Positions 23,921 through 62,183 of a DNA stretch of 64,000 bases are shown here, in pieces. The stretch is from Thiopseudomonas denitrificans (GTDB taxonomy: Bacteria; Pseudomonadota; Gammaproteobacteria; Pseudomonadales; Pseudomonadaceae): contig NZ_LNJZ01000005.1 of the NCBI RefSeq assembly GCF_002866065.1, forward strand, positions 1-64,000. The letters run 5' to 3'. Positions within the stretch are counted from its first letter, which is position 1. Each line of letters opens with the position of its first letter. The notes under the pieces were generated by a model, which worked only from the letters and a program-made list of their open reading frames with translations, was not told the origin of the DNA and ran no database searches. A program made the translations under genes and the position numbers.

Positions 23921-25510
23921 TTGTCGAAAAGTTTTAACTGGATATTGCTGCCGGTACTGGTTGCGTTTACAGGCATGGCTGCTGCCATGGGGCAGATGGA
24001 ACCTGATACCGGTATGACAACGGACCTGGCCAGTGCCTGTCCGGCAGAATACCAGCGCTTTGCTGCCAGCGCGGTTGATGGCGTCCGGGTGCAGGAATAC
24101 TACCGCCGCCAGGGTGACCAGCTGCAGTGGCAGGATGTCGCACGGCGCAACCTCTTGCGCTCGCTGCTGGAGGATCTGCAGTACGACGGCCTTGAGCCGC
24201 AGGAGTACTTGCACGGGCTGCAGCAGGCGGGTACCGCACCTGTCGTGCCGTATTGCACCGATGCCGGCATCAGCCATGATTATCTGCTGGCGCTACACCA
24301 CCTGCAGCATGGCCGGCTGGTGCAGGCCGGAGTCGAGCCTTATTGGGTGGAGGCTGCAGCTGCGCTCAGGCAGCCGCTACCGGTGGTGGATCTGGCCTTG
24401 CAGACAGCGGGCGATCTGGCGCGCAGTTTTGCGCAGGCTCGCCCGGCACAGTTGCTCTATGCACAGTTGCGTGAACAGCTGCGTGATGGGACCTGGCTGC
24501 AGCAGGATGACTGGATTGTGGTTGCTGCAGGCAAGAGCCTGAAGCCCGGCATACGGGACGCACGGGTGGTCGACCTGCGCCTGCGCCTGCAACAGGGCGG
24601 CGTGCTACCGGTGGACCAGCCGGATGCTGACAGCGCGGATCCGTACCTGTATGACGAAAGGCTGGAAACTGCCGTGAAAGCCTTCCAGGCGGATCATTAT
24701 CTTGAGGATGACGGTATTGTCGGCCCGGCGACCCTGACGGAGCTTAATGTGTCGCCGCGCCAGCGGCTGATGCAGGTCAGGGTCAATCTTGAGCGGTTGC
24801 GCTGGCTGGAAAAATATCTGGAGCCCAACCTGCTGATTGTCGATATTGCCGGTGCCCGGTTGCTGTATGTGGAAAACGGTCAGGTCGCCTGGCGTACCCG
24901 CACCCAGGTGGGCACCGTGGGGCGGCAGACACCACTGCTCAAGTCGCGTATTACCCACCTGACCATGAACCCCACTTGGACCGTGCCGCCGACCATTTTC
25001 CGCAAGGACAAGCTACCGGCCATCCGCAAGGATATCGGTTATCTGGAGCGCAGCCGCATGCAGGTGCTAAATGGCCAGGGACAGGTGCTGGACCCTTATT
25101 CGGTTGACTGGAGTGCGCCCGGCAATATCATGCTGCGCCAGGCCGCCGGCCCGGGCAATGCGCTGGGCCGGGTGGCTATCCGCTTTGCCAATCCTTTTTC
25201 CGTATATTTGCATGACACGCCGAGCCAGCACCTGTTTGGCCGCGCCACCCGCACCGTCAGTTCTGGCTGTGTGCGGGTCGAGGGGGTCTTCAGTCTGCTG
25301 GATCTGCTGGCCGCGGATGATTCGACCAGGCAGCGCATCGAACAGCTGCTGGACAGTGGTGAGACCCGTCAGGTCAATCTGGCCCGCCTTACACCTGTGC
25401 TGCTGGCGTACTGGACCGTCGAAGTGGATGTGGATGGGCGACTGCGTTTCCGTGCCGACAGCTACGGACTGGATCAGCGGGTGGCCGAAGCGCTGGAGCG
25501 CGGCGGGTGA
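23921..25510 (+). CDS. YcbB/LdtD-like L,D-transpeptidase
   Basis: This protein of about 529 residues has an N-terminal hydrophobic signal, a scaffold region, a peptidoglycan-binding domain (around RLRLQQGG...DGIVGPATL) and a YkuD domain with HDTPSQHLF and SSGCVRVEG, giving the catalytic His and Cys. It is the layout of E. coli LdtD/YcbB (615 residues). It probably forms 3-3 cross-links in peptidoglycan. No ATG fits: TTG at 23921 has AAAGG nine bases upstream and starts right at the signal peptide (LSKSFNWILLPV). Another TTG at 23846 would add 25 residues. Both are possible, so the start is uncertain. Confidence 0.87.
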   Translation: MSKSFNWILLPVLVAFTGMAAAMGQMEPDTGMTTDLASACPAEYQRFAASAVDGVRVQEYYRRQGDQLQWQDVARRNLLRSLLEDLQYDGLEPQEYLHGLQQAGTAPVVPYCTDAGISHDYLLALHHLQHGRLVQAGVEPYWVEAAAALRQPLPVVDLALQTAGDLARSFAQARPAQLLYAQLREQLRDGTWLQQDDWIVVAAGKSLKPGIRDARVVDLRLRLQQGGVLPVDQPDADSADPYLYDERLETAVKAFQADHYLEDDGIVGPATLTELNVSPRQRLMQVRVNLERLRWLEKYLEPNLLIVDIAGARLLYVENGQVAWRTRTQVGTVGRQTPLLKSRITHLTMNPTWTVPPTIFRKDKLPAIRKDIGYLERSRMQVLNGQGQVLDPYSVDWSAPGNIMLRQAAGPGNALGRVAIRFANPFSVYLHDTPSQHLFGRATRTVSSGCVRVEGVFSLLDLLAADDSTRQRIEQLLDSGETRQVNLARLTPVLLAYWTVEVDVDGRLRFRADSYGLDQRVAEALERGG

Positions 25511-25520
25511 AAAAAGGAAA

Positions 25521-25572
25521 AAGGGGGCAGGTACATTTAAATGCCGGTTAAATGTACCTGACCCCTTTTTTC
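25521..25572. repeat. GGGGTCAGGTACA palindrome, copy 1
   Basis: Arms of 18 bases at 25523-25540 and 25548-25565 carry the GGTACATTTAA core and pair with one mismatch (GGGGGCAGG against CCTGACCCC) around a 7-base loop. A T-run follows. It lies 10 bases past the L,D-transpeptidase stop and next to the stop of the opposite gene, so it may work as a terminator. Copies are also at 32352 and 54081. Confidence 0.8.
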
Positions 25573-25891
25573 ATTGTAGCCTGACAAACAGCACCAACAG
25601 CGGTGTATCCAGCTGGCGCAGCTTGCCGTGTTCAAGGGTAAACCGCGCCGTACCGGATTCATCGACCAGCTGCCCGTTGTTGTTGCGCAGGGTCAGGCTG
25701 CGCACCCGGTCACTGCGACCGTGGCGGATGCGGGCCTCGAGGTGCTCTGCATCGAGCGGCTGCAGGCTGATTTTGAGCGGGTCATCGGCCTGTTCAATCC
25801 ACTCGCCGCCGTACTCCGCCAGTTCGGCAGCCAGGCCGGTTGCGGCCCAGCACAGGCTGGCAATGAAAGTTGTAGCGCGAAAACCGGGCAT
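25571..25891 (-). CDS. Small secreted hypothetical protein
   Basis: This 106-residue protein has a plausible Sec signal (MPGFRATTFIASLCWAATGLAA) and a short beta-rich mature part (about 84 residues, from about ELAEYGGEWIEQ). I do not recognise a family. It is transcribed toward the L,D-transpeptidase gene, with the palindrome between them. The gap upstream (25892-26002) shows nothing further. It is probably a real gene because of the signal peptide, but weakly supported. Confidence 0.55.
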   Translation of the reverse strand: MPGFRATTFIASLCWAATGLAAELAEYGGEWIEQADDPLKISLQPLDAEHLEARIRHGRSDRVRSLTLRNNNGQLVDESGTARFTLEHGKLRQLDTPLLVLFVRLQ

Positions 25892-31796: not shown

Positions 31797-32336
31797 ATGA
31801 ACAAATCCCTGTTGGTTGGTAGCGTGCTGGGGGCAGTGGCTGTCACTGCCGGTGGTGCCTTTGCCACCTATAATCTGATGTCCGGTCCTTCATACGCGGA
31901 AGTGGTGGCGGTCAAGCCGGTTATGGAAACGGTGAAGACACCACGCCAGGAATGCCGTGATGTACAGGTGACCAAACGCAAGCCGGTCAAGGACGAACAT
32001 CGCGTGGCCGGTACGGCGATCGGCGCCGTGGTTGGTGGCGTGCTGGGCAACCAGGTGGGCAAGGGCAACGGGAAAAAGCTGGCGACGGTTGCCGGTGCGG
32101 CTGGCGGCGGTTATGCCGGCAACAAGGCCCAGCAACATATTCAGCAGAACAATACCTATACCGCCACCGAGCGGCGGTGCACCACCGAGTATGATGTCAG
32201 CGAAAAGCTTGCCGGCTATGACGTCAGCTACGAGCTGGGCGGCAAGGTGCGCACCGTGCGTATGGACCAGGACCCCGGCCGCCGCCTGCCGCTGGATGAG
32301 CAGGGGCGTGTGGTTATGGCACAAGCCGGATATTGA
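31797..32336 (+). CDS. Glycine-zipper 2TM-domain protein
   Basis: A 179-residue envelope protein with an N-terminal membrane segment or signal (LLVGSVLGAVAVTAGGAFATYN) and a glycine-zipper stretch (GTAIGAVVGGVLGNQVGKGN...AGAAGGGYAGN) typical of the 2TM glycine-zipper (Rick_17kDa-like) family. Two cysteines, one before the zipper (QECRDVQ) and one after it (ERRCTTEYD), could form a disulfide. Homologues are common in gammaproteobacteria and their role is unclear. The GCGAGGAAACGC before the ATG is the ribosome binding site. Confidence 0.82.
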   Translation: MNKSLLVGSVLGAVAVTAGGAFATYNLMSGPSYAEVVAVKPVMETVKTPRQECRDVQVTKRKPVKDEHRVAGTAIGAVVGGVLGNQVGKGNGKKLATVAGAAGGGYAGNKAQQHIQQNNTYTATERRCTTEYDVSEKLAGYDVSYELGGKVRTVRMDQDPGRRLPLDEQGRVVMAQAGY

Positions 32337-32351
32337 GCGAGCGACAGAAAA

Positions 32352-32393
32352 AGGGGTCAGGTACACTTAAGCATGCTTGAGTGTACCTGCCCC
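32352..32393. repeat. GGGGTCAGGTACA palindrome, copy 2
   Basis: An inverted repeat of about 18-20 bases per arm, centred on GCATGC, with ends GGGGTCAGGTACACT and AGTGTACCTGCCCCC. It lies 16 bases after the stop of the glycine-zipper gene and 20 bases past the end of suhB, which comes from the other strand. It probably serves as a terminator for both. Confidence 0.8.
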
Positions 32394-32413
32394 CCTGTTT
32401 CACTATTGGCTGA

Positions 32414-33226
32414 TTACTTGAAACTGGCTGGTACGTGTGGCTGGATGCTGGTCAGGATGGCCTTGAAGCATTTCGGGTTGCCCGCCACCACATGGCCGTT
32501 GTCCAGGAACTGGTGACCGCCGGCGAAGTCGCTGATCAGGCCGCCCGCTTCCTGGATCAGCAGGGCACCGGCTGCCATGTCCCATTCTGACAGACCGTAC
32601 TCCCAGAAGCCGTCATAGCGGCCGGCGGCAACATAGGCCAGATCCAGGCTGGCGGCACCGGCGCGGCGGATACCGGCGCTTTGTCCGGCCAGTTCGCGGA
32701 ACATCGCCAGGTAGTTGTCGATATGCTCCATCTGCCCGTCACGGAACGGAAAGCCTGTGGCCAGCACCGCATGGGTCAGGTTGTTGCGCTTGGTGACGCG
32801 CAGGCGACGGCCGTTGAGGGTGGCACCGCGGCCACGGCTGGCGAGAAATTCTTCATCCAGCATCGGGTCATAGATTACGGCATGCTCGACCCGGCCACGG
32901 TATTTGCAGGCAATGCTGACCGCAAAGTGGGGGATGCCGTGAATGTAGTTGGTGGTGCCGTCGAGCGGATCAATTACCCACTGGTAGTCTGCTCCTTCGC
33001 CCTGGCCTGCAACGCTGCTGCCTTCCTCGCCAAGGATGCCGTGGTCGGGATAGGCTTTGAGGATAGTGTTGACGATGGTTTTTTCTGCGGCCTGGTCAAC
33101 CTGGGTAACATAGTCTTTACTGTCTTTTTCATTGACTGACAGCGAGTCGAGACGGTCCATGGAACGGACAATCAGTTCGCCGGCAGCGCGCGCAGCGCGC
33201 AGCGCAATATTCAGCATGGGCTGCAT
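32414..33226 (-). CDS. suhB: Inositol-1-monophosphatase family protein SuhB
   Basis: The 270 residues match E. coli SuhB (267), an inositol-monophosphatase-fold protein that also works in rRNA antitermination. Metal-site motifs ILGEEGS, DPLDGTTNYIHG and WDMAAGALLIQEAGG are intact. I chose the ATG at 33224-33226, giving MQPMLNIALRAARAAGELI like the E. coli N-terminus; an in-frame ATG 36 bases earlier adds an unlikely extension. It is divergent from trmJ across about 140 bases. Confidence 0.94.
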   Translation of the reverse strand: MQPMLNIALRAARAAGELIVRSMDRLDSLSVNEKDSKDYVTQVDQAAEKTIVNTILKAYPDHGILGEEGSSVAGQGEGADYQWVIDPLDGTTNYIHGIPHFAVSIACKYRGRVEHAVIYDPMLDEEFLASRGRGATLNGRRLRVTKRNNLTHAVLATGFPFRDGQMEHIDNYLAMFRELAGQSAGIRRAGAASLDLAYVAAGRYDGFWEYGLSEWDMAAGALLIQEAGGLISDFAGGHQFLDNGHVVAGNPKCFKAILTSIQPHVPASFK

Positions 33227-33369
33227 GGAGGAATACCTGGGGTTGTTAAAGAAGAGGCGCACATTCTAACAGAAAGTCGGGCGTTGTGCGTTGAAGAAAA
33301 ATCGCTTTGCCATGGAAACGCCGGGCAACCTTGGGTAAGCTTTGAGGTTTTCGATTGCCGGGGTAGCAG

Positions 33370-40297: not shown

Positions 40298-40492
40298 ATG
40301 AAATGGATTGACGTACTGGATATCGCCATCGAACTGGCGGAAAAACATCCCGATACCGACCCGCGCTACATCAACTTCGTCAATCTGCACCGCATGGTGA
40401 CAGAGCTGGACGATTTTGATGATGACCCCCAGCGCAGTGGCGAAAAGGTGCTGGAAGCCATCCAGGCCGCCTGGATCGAGGAACTGGACTAG
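40298..40492 (+). CDS. iscX: IscX (YfhJ-type) protein
   Basis: The 64-residue acidic helper closes the isc operon and modulates IscS. MKWIDVLDIAIELAEKHPD and DFDDDPQRSGEKVLEAI fit the family (E. coli 66). Its TAG stop (40490-40492) is also the first three bases of a MITE-like element, so the element end may supply the stop codon. The rest of the protein looks intact. Confidence 0.95.
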   Translation: MKWIDVLDIAIELAEKHPDTDPRYINFVNLHRMVTELDDFDDDPQRSGEKVLEAIQAAWIEELD

Positions 40493-40642
40493 TGGCCTGA
40501 CCGGTCAATTCAATTGGTCAACTCCGGCGCCTGTGACTCCGATACTGCGTTGCAGCTTCTCATCGTCCCGCGATGACTCGTCGCAGGCCTTGTCTCGTGG
40601 CCACAGTCATCCGGGCTTGAGTTGATCCACTGACCAGGCAGA
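40490..40642 (+). mobile_element. Fold-back MITE-like element, copy 1 (complete, diverged)
   Basis: It begins TAGTGGCCTGACCGG, then GGCGCCTG...GACTCCGATACTGCG, has the inner GATGACTCGTCGCAG block, and ends with GGCTTGAGTTGATCC...ACCAGGC, the inverse of the other arm. It carries no reading frame. Aligned by eye to the full copy at 62020, it is the same element with scattered substitutions. The left end coincides with the iscX stop codon. Confidence 0.75.
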
Positions 40643-52919: not shown

Positions 52920-54023
52920 ATGTATAAATACTTTCTGTTTGCAGTGCTGGCGCTGGGCCTCGGCAACACCGCCCAGGCCGAACGGCTGAAGGATCTCGCC
53001 AGCATTCAGGGCGTGCGTACCAACCAGCTGATCGGTTATGGCCTGGTGGTCGGCCTGAGCGGTAGCGGTGACCAGACCACACAAACCCCTTTCACCGTAC
53101 AGACATTCAACAACATGCTGGCCGAGTTCGGCATCCGGGTGCCGGCCGGCAGCGGCAACATCCAGTTGAAAAACGTTGCGGCGGTCTCGGTGCACGCTGA
53201 TCTGCCGCCGTTTGCCCGACCCGGACAGACCATCGACATCACGGTGTCATCGATCGGTAACGCCAAGAGTCTGCGCGGCGGCAGCCTGTTGATGACGCCG
53301 CTGAAGGGGATTGACGGCAACGTCTATGCCATTGCCCAGGGCAACCTGGTGGTGGGCGGCTTTGATGCCGGCGGAGCCGATGGCTCGCGCATTACCGTCA
53401 ACGTGCCCTCGGCGGGCCGCATTCCGTCCGGTGCCACCGTCGAGCGGGCGGTGCCCAGCGCCTTTGATCAGGGTGACTATCTGACCCTGAACCTGAACCG
53501 GCCGGACTTTACCACAGCCAAGAACATCACCGACAAGCTCAACGACCTGCTGGGTCCTGGTGTTGCCATGGCGCTGGACGCCGGCTCTATCCGGGTCGCG
53601 GCACCGCTTGATCCGAGCCAGCGAGTCAACTATTTGTCGGTCATCGAGAACCTTGAGGTGGAGGCCGGCAAGGCGGTGGCCAAGGTCATCATCAACTCGC
53701 GTACCGGTACCATTGTCATCGGGCAGGATGTACGGGTGCAGCCGGCTGCCGTCACCCATGGCAGCCTGACCGTGGCGATCAGTGAAGACATTTCGGTCAG
53801 CCAGCCGGAGCCGTTTTCACAGGGAGAGACGGTGGTGACACCGCGCTCGAAAGTCAGCGCCGAGCAGGAAAAACGCCCCATGTTCAAGTTCGCACCGGGC
53901 ACCACGCTGGATGAAATTGTCCGTGCGGTCAACCAGGTGGGGGCTGCGCCATCCGACTTGATGGCCATCCTGGAAGCGCTGAAACAGGCTGGCGCCCTGC
54001 AGGCCGACCTGATCGTGATCTAG
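52920..54023 (+). CDS. flgI: Flagellar P-ring protein FlgI
   Basis: 367-residue periplasmic ring protein with a Sec signal ([20 protein letters not shown]). Contains [32 protein letters not shown] and the C-terminal [23 protein letters not shown]. The protein ends as in homologues, so it is complete. The TAG stop (54021-54023) is also the first three bases of a truncated MITE element. In Pseudomonas-type order flgJ should follow, but it is absent here. Confidence 0.95.
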
Positions 54024-54080
54024 CGGCCTGTACGGCTAATTCCATTAGTCAGTTTCGGCGTCTGAGGCTCCGATGCTGCG
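54021..54080 (+). mobile_element. Truncated MITE-like element after flgI (copy 2)
   Basis: TAGCGGCCTGTACGGCTAATTCC leading to GGCTCCGATGCTGCG aligns with one arm of the full 62020 copy and with copy 1. After GATGCTGCG the element breaks off and a GGGGTCAGGTACA palindrome begins at once. The other arm is missing. Confidence 0.8.
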
Positions 54081-54117
54081 AAGGGGTCAGGTACATTAAT
54101 GTACCTGACCCCTTTTT
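54081..54117. repeat. GGGGTCAGGTACA palindrome, copy 3
   Basis: A perfect inverted repeat of 17 bases per arm without loop (54081-54114), followed by TTT. It abuts the truncated MITE. It probably acts as a terminator for flgI and the minus-strand gene. Confidence 0.85.
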
Positions 54118-54150: not shown

Positions 54151-54651
54151 TCACTGCGGGTGACACAGCAGACGTAACAGCGGGTCTCCTGCCGGCAGGG
54201 TTTCGATCAGGATGCTGTCACCCAGATGTGATACCAGGTCCTGGCTGGTGCAATTGAGCATCAGGCGTTGTGCCCCGTCGCGGGCCTCTCCGCTCTGACG
54301 AAACTCAAACAGATCAAATTCCAGCAGCAGGCTGCCATTGGCCTCCATCGCGGTTCCTGCATTGTCGATGGCGGTTATGCGGGTAACGGGCGGCCAGAGC
54401 AGTGTCCAGGGGTGCAGTGGCAGCGTTTCCTGCGTTTGGCTGACGATCAGGGCGCTGGCTGGCAGGCCGTCGCGCACGCCGGTGGCCCAGTGATAATCCT
54501 GATAGGCCAGCGAGGCCGCACCGCCGGCCAATACCAGCACGCCGGCCAGCAAAATGCGCAGCCGGAGCGAGCGCCTGTGCAGCAGTGCGGACAGCAACAA
54601 AACAATGGCAGCCAGGACGGGCAGGGCGATCAACAGGGTTGGAGCATGCAT
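54151..54651 (-). CDS. Membrane protein of unknown function (paralogue of the 57363 gene)
   Basis: From the ATG at 54649-54651 the protein is 166 residues. It has two N-terminal transmembrane segments (about 5-24 and 33-50), a conserved YQDY (50-53), LPA (63-65), PWT (81-83), LNC (132-134) and a C-terminal LLC (Cys163). The same set of positions occurs in the protein at 57363-57872. I do not recognise a named family. The LNC cysteine and the C-terminal cysteine could form a disulfide, since the domain after the helices may face the periplasm. The gene is divergent from the symporter. Confidence 0.7.
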   Translation of the reverse strand: MHAPTLLIALPVLAAIVLLLSALLHRRSLRLRILLAGVLVLAGGAASLAYQDYHWATGVRDGLPASALIVSQTQETLPLHPWTLLWPPVTRITAIDNAGTAMEANGSLLLEFDLFEFRQSGEARDGAQRLMLNCTSQDLVSHLGDSILIETLPAGDPLLRLLCHPQ

Positions 54652-61868: not shown

Positions 61869-62019
61869 GGAGACCTCTCCCTGGCAAAAAAACGCAGTCT
61901 AAACCGGCTATGCGGGATATGTCATCAGGTCTGATGTGAAAATGTCGGCTTTGCAGTATCGGTGCACAGGTTGCGAAGGGTCACTGCATGTACACCCATG
62001 CACCGCCGCCGCAGGCCGC

Positions 62020-62183
62020 TAGTGGCCTGAACGGCTAGTTCGTTAACTCAAGTTCGGATGGCTGGGGATTCGGGGCAAGGCGCTGTGACGAGTCATAGCG
62101 GGGCTATGGCGAGGAGCAGCAACGCAGCATCGGAGCCTCAGGCGCCGAAATTGACTAATGGAATTAGCCCGTACAGGCCATTA
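62020..62183 (-). mobile_element. MITE-like fold-back element, copy 3 (complete)
   Basis: About 164 bases. Termini TAGTGGCCTGAACGGCTAG and, inverted, TAATGGCCTGTACGGGCTA match over about 40 bases as imperfect inverted repeats. The centre has CATAGC/GCTATG. No reading frame inside. The right end at 62183-62181 gives the TAA stop of ycaO on the minus strand. The 150 bases before it (61869-62019) hold nothing else I recognise. Confidence 0.85.

Follow-up and report, generated by a model that had tools for sequence, protein, structure and literature searches.

Gene-end palindromes of Thiopseudomonas denitrificans are TIR dimers of the TIRYT group and may act as transcription terminators

In a stretch of 64,000 nucleotides at the start of a Thiopseudomonas denitrificans contig (NZ_LNJZ01000005.1, positions 1 to 64,000; referred to here as the window), three pairs of convergent genes enclose a near-perfect inverted repeat (Table 1). 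An earlier note, made from the sequence alone, had placed such palindromes with a shared core at 25521, 32352, and 54081; all three were borne out, at 25521-25572, ~32350-32397, and 54081-54117, as were the loops of 0 to 7 bases that it described (about 7 bases at site 1 and 4 at site 2, from folding, and 0 at site 3, from reading of the sequence). With up to two mismatches allowed, the core occurred eight times in the window, compared to a mean of 1.34 in 100 shuffles (maximum, 6), and the arms of the three palindromes provided six of these eight matches. The placement between convergent genes was likewise confirmed at all three sites, with genes called by our own crude codon-based script. 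The GGGG/CCCC edges of the palindromes were 12 and 5 bases from the two stop codons at site 1 and 16 and 19 bases from them at site 2. At site 3 the edges were 59 and 38 bases from the stops, and a second dispersed repeat lay directly before the palindrome, as claimed.

Table 1. Features at the three palindrome sites of the window
Feature	Position	Strand	Remarks
L,D-transpeptidase gene	23945..25510	+	Ends just 5' of dimer 1
TIR dimer 1	25517..25572		TIRs at 25520-25538 (left, plus) and 25550-25568 (right, minus); GGGGGCAGG in left arm, one stem mismatch; T-tracts on both strands
Hypothetical gene (106 aa)	25571..25891	-	Converges on dimer 1; stop codon touches T-tract
Glycine-zipper protein gene	31797..32336	+	Ends ahead of dimer 2
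TIR dimer 2	32350..32397		TIRs starting at 32350 (left, plus) and ending at 32397 (right, minus); CCTGCCCCC in right arm; good T-tract on minus strand only
Inositol monophosphatase family gene	32414..33262	-	Converges on dimer 2
flgI (flagellar P-ring) gene	52920..54023	+	Ends ahead of dimer 3
Second dispersed repeat, shortened copy	54020..54080		Abutted by dimer 3
TIR dimer 3	54081..54117		Perfect palindrome AGGGGTCAGGTACATTAATGTACCTGACCCCT; good T-tract on plus strand only
Gene without a name (166 aa)	54151..54651	-	Converges on dimer 3

No Rfam family matched at the palindrome sites at the gathering threshold; a glycine riboswitch (RF00504) was found above its gathering score at 843-938 on the minus strand of the window. 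The second dispersed repeat (CTAGTGGCCTGTACGGCTAATTCCATTAGTCAATTTCGGCG...) was present in the window at 54020-54080, 40489-40527, and 62019-62057 and in at least 10 more copies with 87 to 97% identity, often 3' of stop codons. Full copies extend past 61 bases, and in one locus (L309) the repeat has two short, mutually inverted ends, in the manner of a MITE.

In the whole genome (2.84 Mb in 9 contigs, with the window as C2:1-64000), the core GGGGTCAGGTACA was present in 29 exact and 18 one-mismatch copies, compared to 3 for a reversed-pattern control. Most of the copies sat in 23 near-perfect inverted pairs, here called dimers, in which AAAGGGGTCAGGTACATTT is followed by a loop and its reverse complement, with the layout NNN-AAAGGGGTCAGGTACATTTA-NNNN-loop-mirror. 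A strict paired pattern was found at 18 places genome-wide and at none in the reversed control, and folding of the dimer core by itself gave -17 to -37 kcal/mol. In the script numbering, sites 1, 2, and 3 of the window carry the numbers 6, 7, and 8. Seven one-mismatch cores without a close inverted partner (C1:641095, C3:105039, C4:258849, C5:150241, C5:306143, C7:52074, and C8:65501) were dropped as chance matches. Compensating changes in the arms (GTCAGG, GGCAGG), which the earlier note had reported, did not hold up in the window, where the changes were one-sided and affected a single arm at site 1 (GGGGGCAGG versus CCTGACCCC) and site 2 (GGGGTCAGG versus CCTGCCCCC), with the mismatch unpaired in both folds. 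Genuine two-sided changes were present in other copies, at C1:207198, C2:218192, and C2:225699. Six of the 23 dimers fell within 12 kb (C2:213935-225730; L042), between unrelated housekeeping-type genes that include, as judged by eye, a copper-type ATPase and its MerR-type regulator.

The convergent placement seen at the three window sites did not extend to the family at large, in which 14 dimers lay in tandem intervals, 6 in convergent and 2 in divergent ones, and 1 within an ORF call near its start. Two of these assignments are uncertain, because the left neighbors of C1:285798 (classed as convergent) and C2:306750 (classed as divergent) are a 24-aa call and a weak 86-aa call, respectively. 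The dimer at C8:27057 precedes the methyltransferase domain of its ORF, the true start of which may be downstream. Thus, copies were rare in the positions that had been named as evidence against a terminator role, with 2 of 23 in divergent intervals and 1 of 23 in an ORF. Convergent intervals were overused (6 of 22 dimers versus 6% of the intergenic bases of the window; P = 0.0017) and divergent intervals underused (2 of 22 dimers versus 27%; P = 0.04); half of the six convergent intervals in the window contained a dimer. Of the 14 tandem dimers, 11 were closer to the upstream stop than to the next gene (medians, 18.5 and 59 bases), and the mean fractional position of the tandem dimers differed from uniform placement (P = 0.002). 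The 17 clusters in Nitrincola loci comprised 6 convergent, 9 tandem, and 2 at locus ends, and the 12 in Thalassotalea comprised 4 convergent and 8 tandem with none at locus ends; none was divergent in either genus. The gene-end bias was weaker or absent elsewhere, with tandem clusters nearer the stop in 7 of 12 cases in Lysobacteraceae and in 0 of 3 in the planctomycete VGXU (Planctomycetota).

The exact 19-mer AAAGGGGTCAGGTACATTT was found in 69 stretches of other genomes from the GTDB genome collection, across phyla, with hosts that include Nitrincola, Thalassotalea, Halopseudomonas, Stutzerimonas, Lysobacteraceae, Planctomycetota, and Patescibacteria. A Y1 transposase domain was present in 31 of 32 of these genomes that were searched again, but the domain is so common that its presence by itself is weak evidence. 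The position of the motif relative to the Y1 gene is strong evidence for a link to the transposase. Six of the 32 genomes had the motif near a Y1 gene, in inverted orientation ~670 bases past the start of the Y1 domain in four of them (G095, G104, G110, and G124) and just upstream of the gene in two (G111 and G117). The Y1 genes with the motif encode transposases of ~230 aa and are bracketed by inverted motif copies set at a constant distance, as in L168, L170, L171, and L173, among others. GGGGWSAS, given in PMC3733652 as the TIR consensus of TIRYT genes, preceded 10 of 15 aligned TIRYTs and followed 12 in inverted orientation, with 9 TIRYTs having it at either end; in the two-sided cases the ends mostly shared the gene's own variant (for example, GGGGTCAGGTTCACTT in L177 and GGGGTCAGAGTCGC in L175). 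The same motif scan was applied to 22 further loci, 8 of them without a usable ORF, and the motif was on both sides in 2 of the 14 usable ones (GGGGACAGACC variants).

All 15 aligned proteins share invariant H60/H62 and Y120..NP (the HUH and Y-NP motifs), and they are 214 to 237 aa long, compared to 143 to 152 aa for the five GTAG-type matches measured. In the one protein scanned against Pfam for an HTH-like C-terminal domain (from L171), Y1_Tnp was the only hit. As that group is described by Di Nocera et al. 2013 (PMC3733652), the transposase lineage is the TIRYT group, and it is probably subclass 2.1 of TnpA-REP as delineated by Quentin et al. 2018 (PMC6006769). Among the papers searched, the names TIRYT and TIRtron appeared in these two alone, and two others that contain the 12-base core or its complement appear unrelated. 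The dimer core contains GGGGWSAS, as GGGGTCAG, and this fit, together with the inverted copies that flank TIRYT genes, leads us to read the palindromes as TIR dimers, REPIN-like and other than GTAG-type REPs. The motif is dispersed, as 23 dimers in T. denitrificans and mostly as singles in several other genomes. TIR copies are also interspersed with toxin-antitoxin genes: in Stutzerimonas (L171, 549-2961), a TIR-bounded unit of 640 bases that carries an antitoxin gene occurs in duplicate beside a ParE-type toxin gene and the TIRYT. TIRs also lie among several small toxin-antitoxin-like genes in Halopseudomonas (L129), and four same-direction TIRs and one inverted TIR are arrayed in tandem with 27- to 38-base spacing in Nitrincola (L082, 952-1095).

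The earlier note had proposed REP-type elements and a search for the associated transposase (RAYT). A mobile origin is well supported, and the relatives of the palindromes are the TIRs of TIRYTs rather than the GTAG REPs of RAYTs. No Y1 gene adjoins the palindromes in T. denitrificans. A PF01797 profile search of the genome did recover one relic with an in-frame stop (C2:290579-290929), but it sits among and belongs with GTAGGTGCGAATTCATTCGCAC-type REPs, a GTAG-type family distinct from the dimers. This relic and its REPs (L043, 5400-6100; C2 ~290.4-291.1 kb) represent a second REP family, one member of which is also present in L309. A TIRYT profile gave no TIRYT in the genome, only the RAYT relic (E = 1e-16), compared to E values of 1e-71 to 1e-103 for its ten best matches among 57 genomes, and nothing better than the relic was found in three genomes of the same genus that are ~90% (two) and 87% (one) complete. 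The dimers are thus an orphan population in this genome; according to PMC3733652, the presence of transposase genes and that of repeat families are not clearly correlated.

The dimers resemble several described systems in part. The TIRs of TIRYT genes and TIRtrons, as characterized in PMC3733652, share with them GGGGWSAS in inverted copies around a tyrosine transposase of ~230 aa and a dispersal as singles, dimers, and groups, but the copies in T. denitrificans are nearly all dimers with long hairpins, in a genome without a TIRYT. REPINs, in the description of Bertels and Rainey 2011 (PMC3116915), are likewise inverted doublets of a conserved word that form intergenic hairpins with paired changes in the spacer; unlike REPINs, the dimers lack a GTAG-type REP with its own stem, belong with a different transposase subclass, and have paired changes outside the conserved word as well. 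GTAG REPs and their RAYTs have in common with the dimers a gene-end location, in the account of PMC3733652, and a related Y1 transposase, whereas no GTAG or GTGG tag was present at the edges of the 23 dimers.

Whether the dimers are built as terminators was evaluated with a standard terminator score. The score was above zero on the plus strand for 14 of 23 dimers, on the minus strand for 16, on both for 13, and on at least one for 17, which combine the G+C-rich hairpin and T-tract of an intrinsic terminator; it was below zero in both directions for 6 (script sites 5, 13, 16, 21, 22, and 23), and several dimers had weak T-tracts. Dimers 2 and 3, in which one strand only has a good T-tract, weigh against a terminator role. 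The T count after the hairpin averaged 4.96 (n = 26) towards a gene that needs to be stopped and 4.07 (n = 14) away from one (one-sided P = 0.017), a modest excess obtained with three of the 23 sites (two divergent, one inside an ORF) excluded. At convergent dimers, transcript 3' ends are predicted to fall just past CCCCTTTT.

Corresponding intervals in three relatives (G001, G002, and G003) were compared at 9 of the 23 sites, all on contig C2; C2:225699 gave no answer. G002, which is ~82% identical, had diverged yet recognizable dimers at five of the nine sites, including window sites 1 and 2, with two dimers at site 2. Therefore, these insertions predate the split from G002, and the T. denitrificans copies at the shared sites have remained near consensus. 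The dimer at site 3 was not present in any of the three relatives and cuts into the second repeat, and it is therefore younger. Of seven convergent intervals of the relatives that were free of TIRs, four contained an ordinary terminator. In G003, a sister species, it was found on both strands at sites 1 and 2 and on the plus strand at site 3; the site 1 scores of 31 and 29 are slightly below a yardstick of 33, a score that 100-base stretches drawn at random from the window reached in 3 of 300 cases, and the right-hand neighbor gene could not be aligned there. In G001 it was found on both strands at site 2, where, as in G003, the left gene of T. denitrificans is missing and the terminator follows the next gene upstream. 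No ordinary terminator was found in the other three convergent intervals (site 3 of G001 and of G002 and C2:218192 of G003) or in any of five TIR-free tandem intervals, by a strict scan that does not pick up decayed hairpins containing wobble pairs; it passed over the site 1 and site 2 orthologues in G002, for example, although these fold. Because G003 has ordinary terminators after the corresponding genes, a terminator role is supported at the three convergent window sites; genome-wide, where 14 of 23 dimers are tandem and several T-tracts weak, the claim is less well served. These results suggest that dimers between convergent genes are probably in use as transcription terminators. A literature search found no paper that joins miniature inverted repeats and terminators with convergent genes, and one on REPs as two-way terminators yielded a single Bacillus paper that appears unrelated.

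The two arms of a dimer matched each other beyond the conserved AAAGGGG. In the 23 dimers, flank positions d4, d5, and d6 agreed within a copy in 83, 78, and 70% of cases, compared to 39, 35, and 30% between copies; at d7 the match was down to 39 versus 25%, and d8 was at chance level (P at most 5e-5). Inner positions 17 to 21 showed similar matching within copies. In 13 Nitrincola dimers, d5 and d6 matched in 85 and 77% versus 51 and 28%, with chance levels from d7 (P = 0.006 outward and at most 5e-5 inward). Arm agreement at variable positions thus extends to the sixth base outside G4 in both Thiopseudomonas and Nitrincola. It was less clean (P = 0.006, with d7 still at 50 versus 25%) in a mixed set of Thalassotalea and other dimers from the loci examined, 12 after removal of duplicates. 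IS608 has guide and cleavage sequences; no relation in that style between outer and inner variable bases was seen within the dimers, by eye. In REPINs, the spacer is known to carry paired changes (PMC3116915); outward pairing beyond the conserved word is not known to us from REPINs. Since pairing past the T-tract gives a terminator no benefit, a copying mechanism is a reasonable alternative to selection. We offer tentatively, as something that we doubt more than we believe, that the copying unit has arms of ~26 bases, with one arm templated on the other as a hairpin and the flanking variable bases carried along, and that the host then adopts the copies as gene-end terminators; snap-back copying or single-strand transposition may be the route.

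Among other explanations, the dimers might be selfish leftovers, repeats mobilized by TIRYTs and tolerated just after stop codons, with the likeness to terminators an unused by-product of AAAGGGG...CCCCTTT. The preponderance of tandem dimers, the relatives' five tandem intervals without an ordinary terminator, and arm matching that continues past the T-tract all fit this explanation, as does the same gene-end bias in GTAG REPs reported in PMC3733652. However, the ordinary terminators of G003 match all three window sites, Ts are in excess in the needed direction, and the diverged copies in G002 still keep their hairpins, so we consider it unlikely, though by no means negligible. It is very improbable that the dimers are ordinary intrinsic terminators that share sequence through duplication within the genome and have no link to a transposase: their build and location would be expected of terminators, but the same 19-mer occurs in many genera and flanks TIRYT genes.

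Uptake words of other bacteria are dispersed words that are inverted at gene ends and there double as intrinsic terminators, a layout similar to that of the dimers. Known uptake words have far higher copy numbers, whereas the dimers, with only 29 exact core copies in 2.84 Mb, are far fewer and are associated with a transposase, which makes an uptake function barely credible. The long, symmetric conserved core would also suit operator sites for a DNA-binding protein; given the placement 3' of stop codons, with just two dimers in divergent intervals, and again the transposase association, we regard this as extremely unlikely.

The reading that we prefer, with a probability of roughly 0.7, is that the palindromes are TIRYT-type TIR dimers that spread in an ancestor, lost their transposase, and now serve as intrinsic terminators between convergent genes. 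They are inverted pairs of the TIR that goes with a lineage of TIRYT-type transposases (IS200/IS605-like, HUH/tyrosine), and as miniature nonautonomous elements they are comparable to REPINs. Movement by a TIRYT, probably through single-strand hairpin transposition, would have dispersed them in the ancestor, and the transposase would since have gone from this genome, with the surviving insertions mainly just 3' of stop codons. Between convergent genes, a hairpin set between an A-tract and a T-tract may then work as an intrinsic terminator, in many cases for both directions, and the dimers would stand where relatives retain an ordinary terminator.

The element is thus of a known kind, a TIR dimer of the TIRYT group, new in this host and present without its transposase. 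It is a clear example of a repeat from a transposon end that has outlived its transposase and is placed where relatives have ordinary terminators. The little-studied TIR/TIRYT group is now tied to an exact substrate sequence, which can be tested with the transposases of Thalassotalea or Stutzerimonas.
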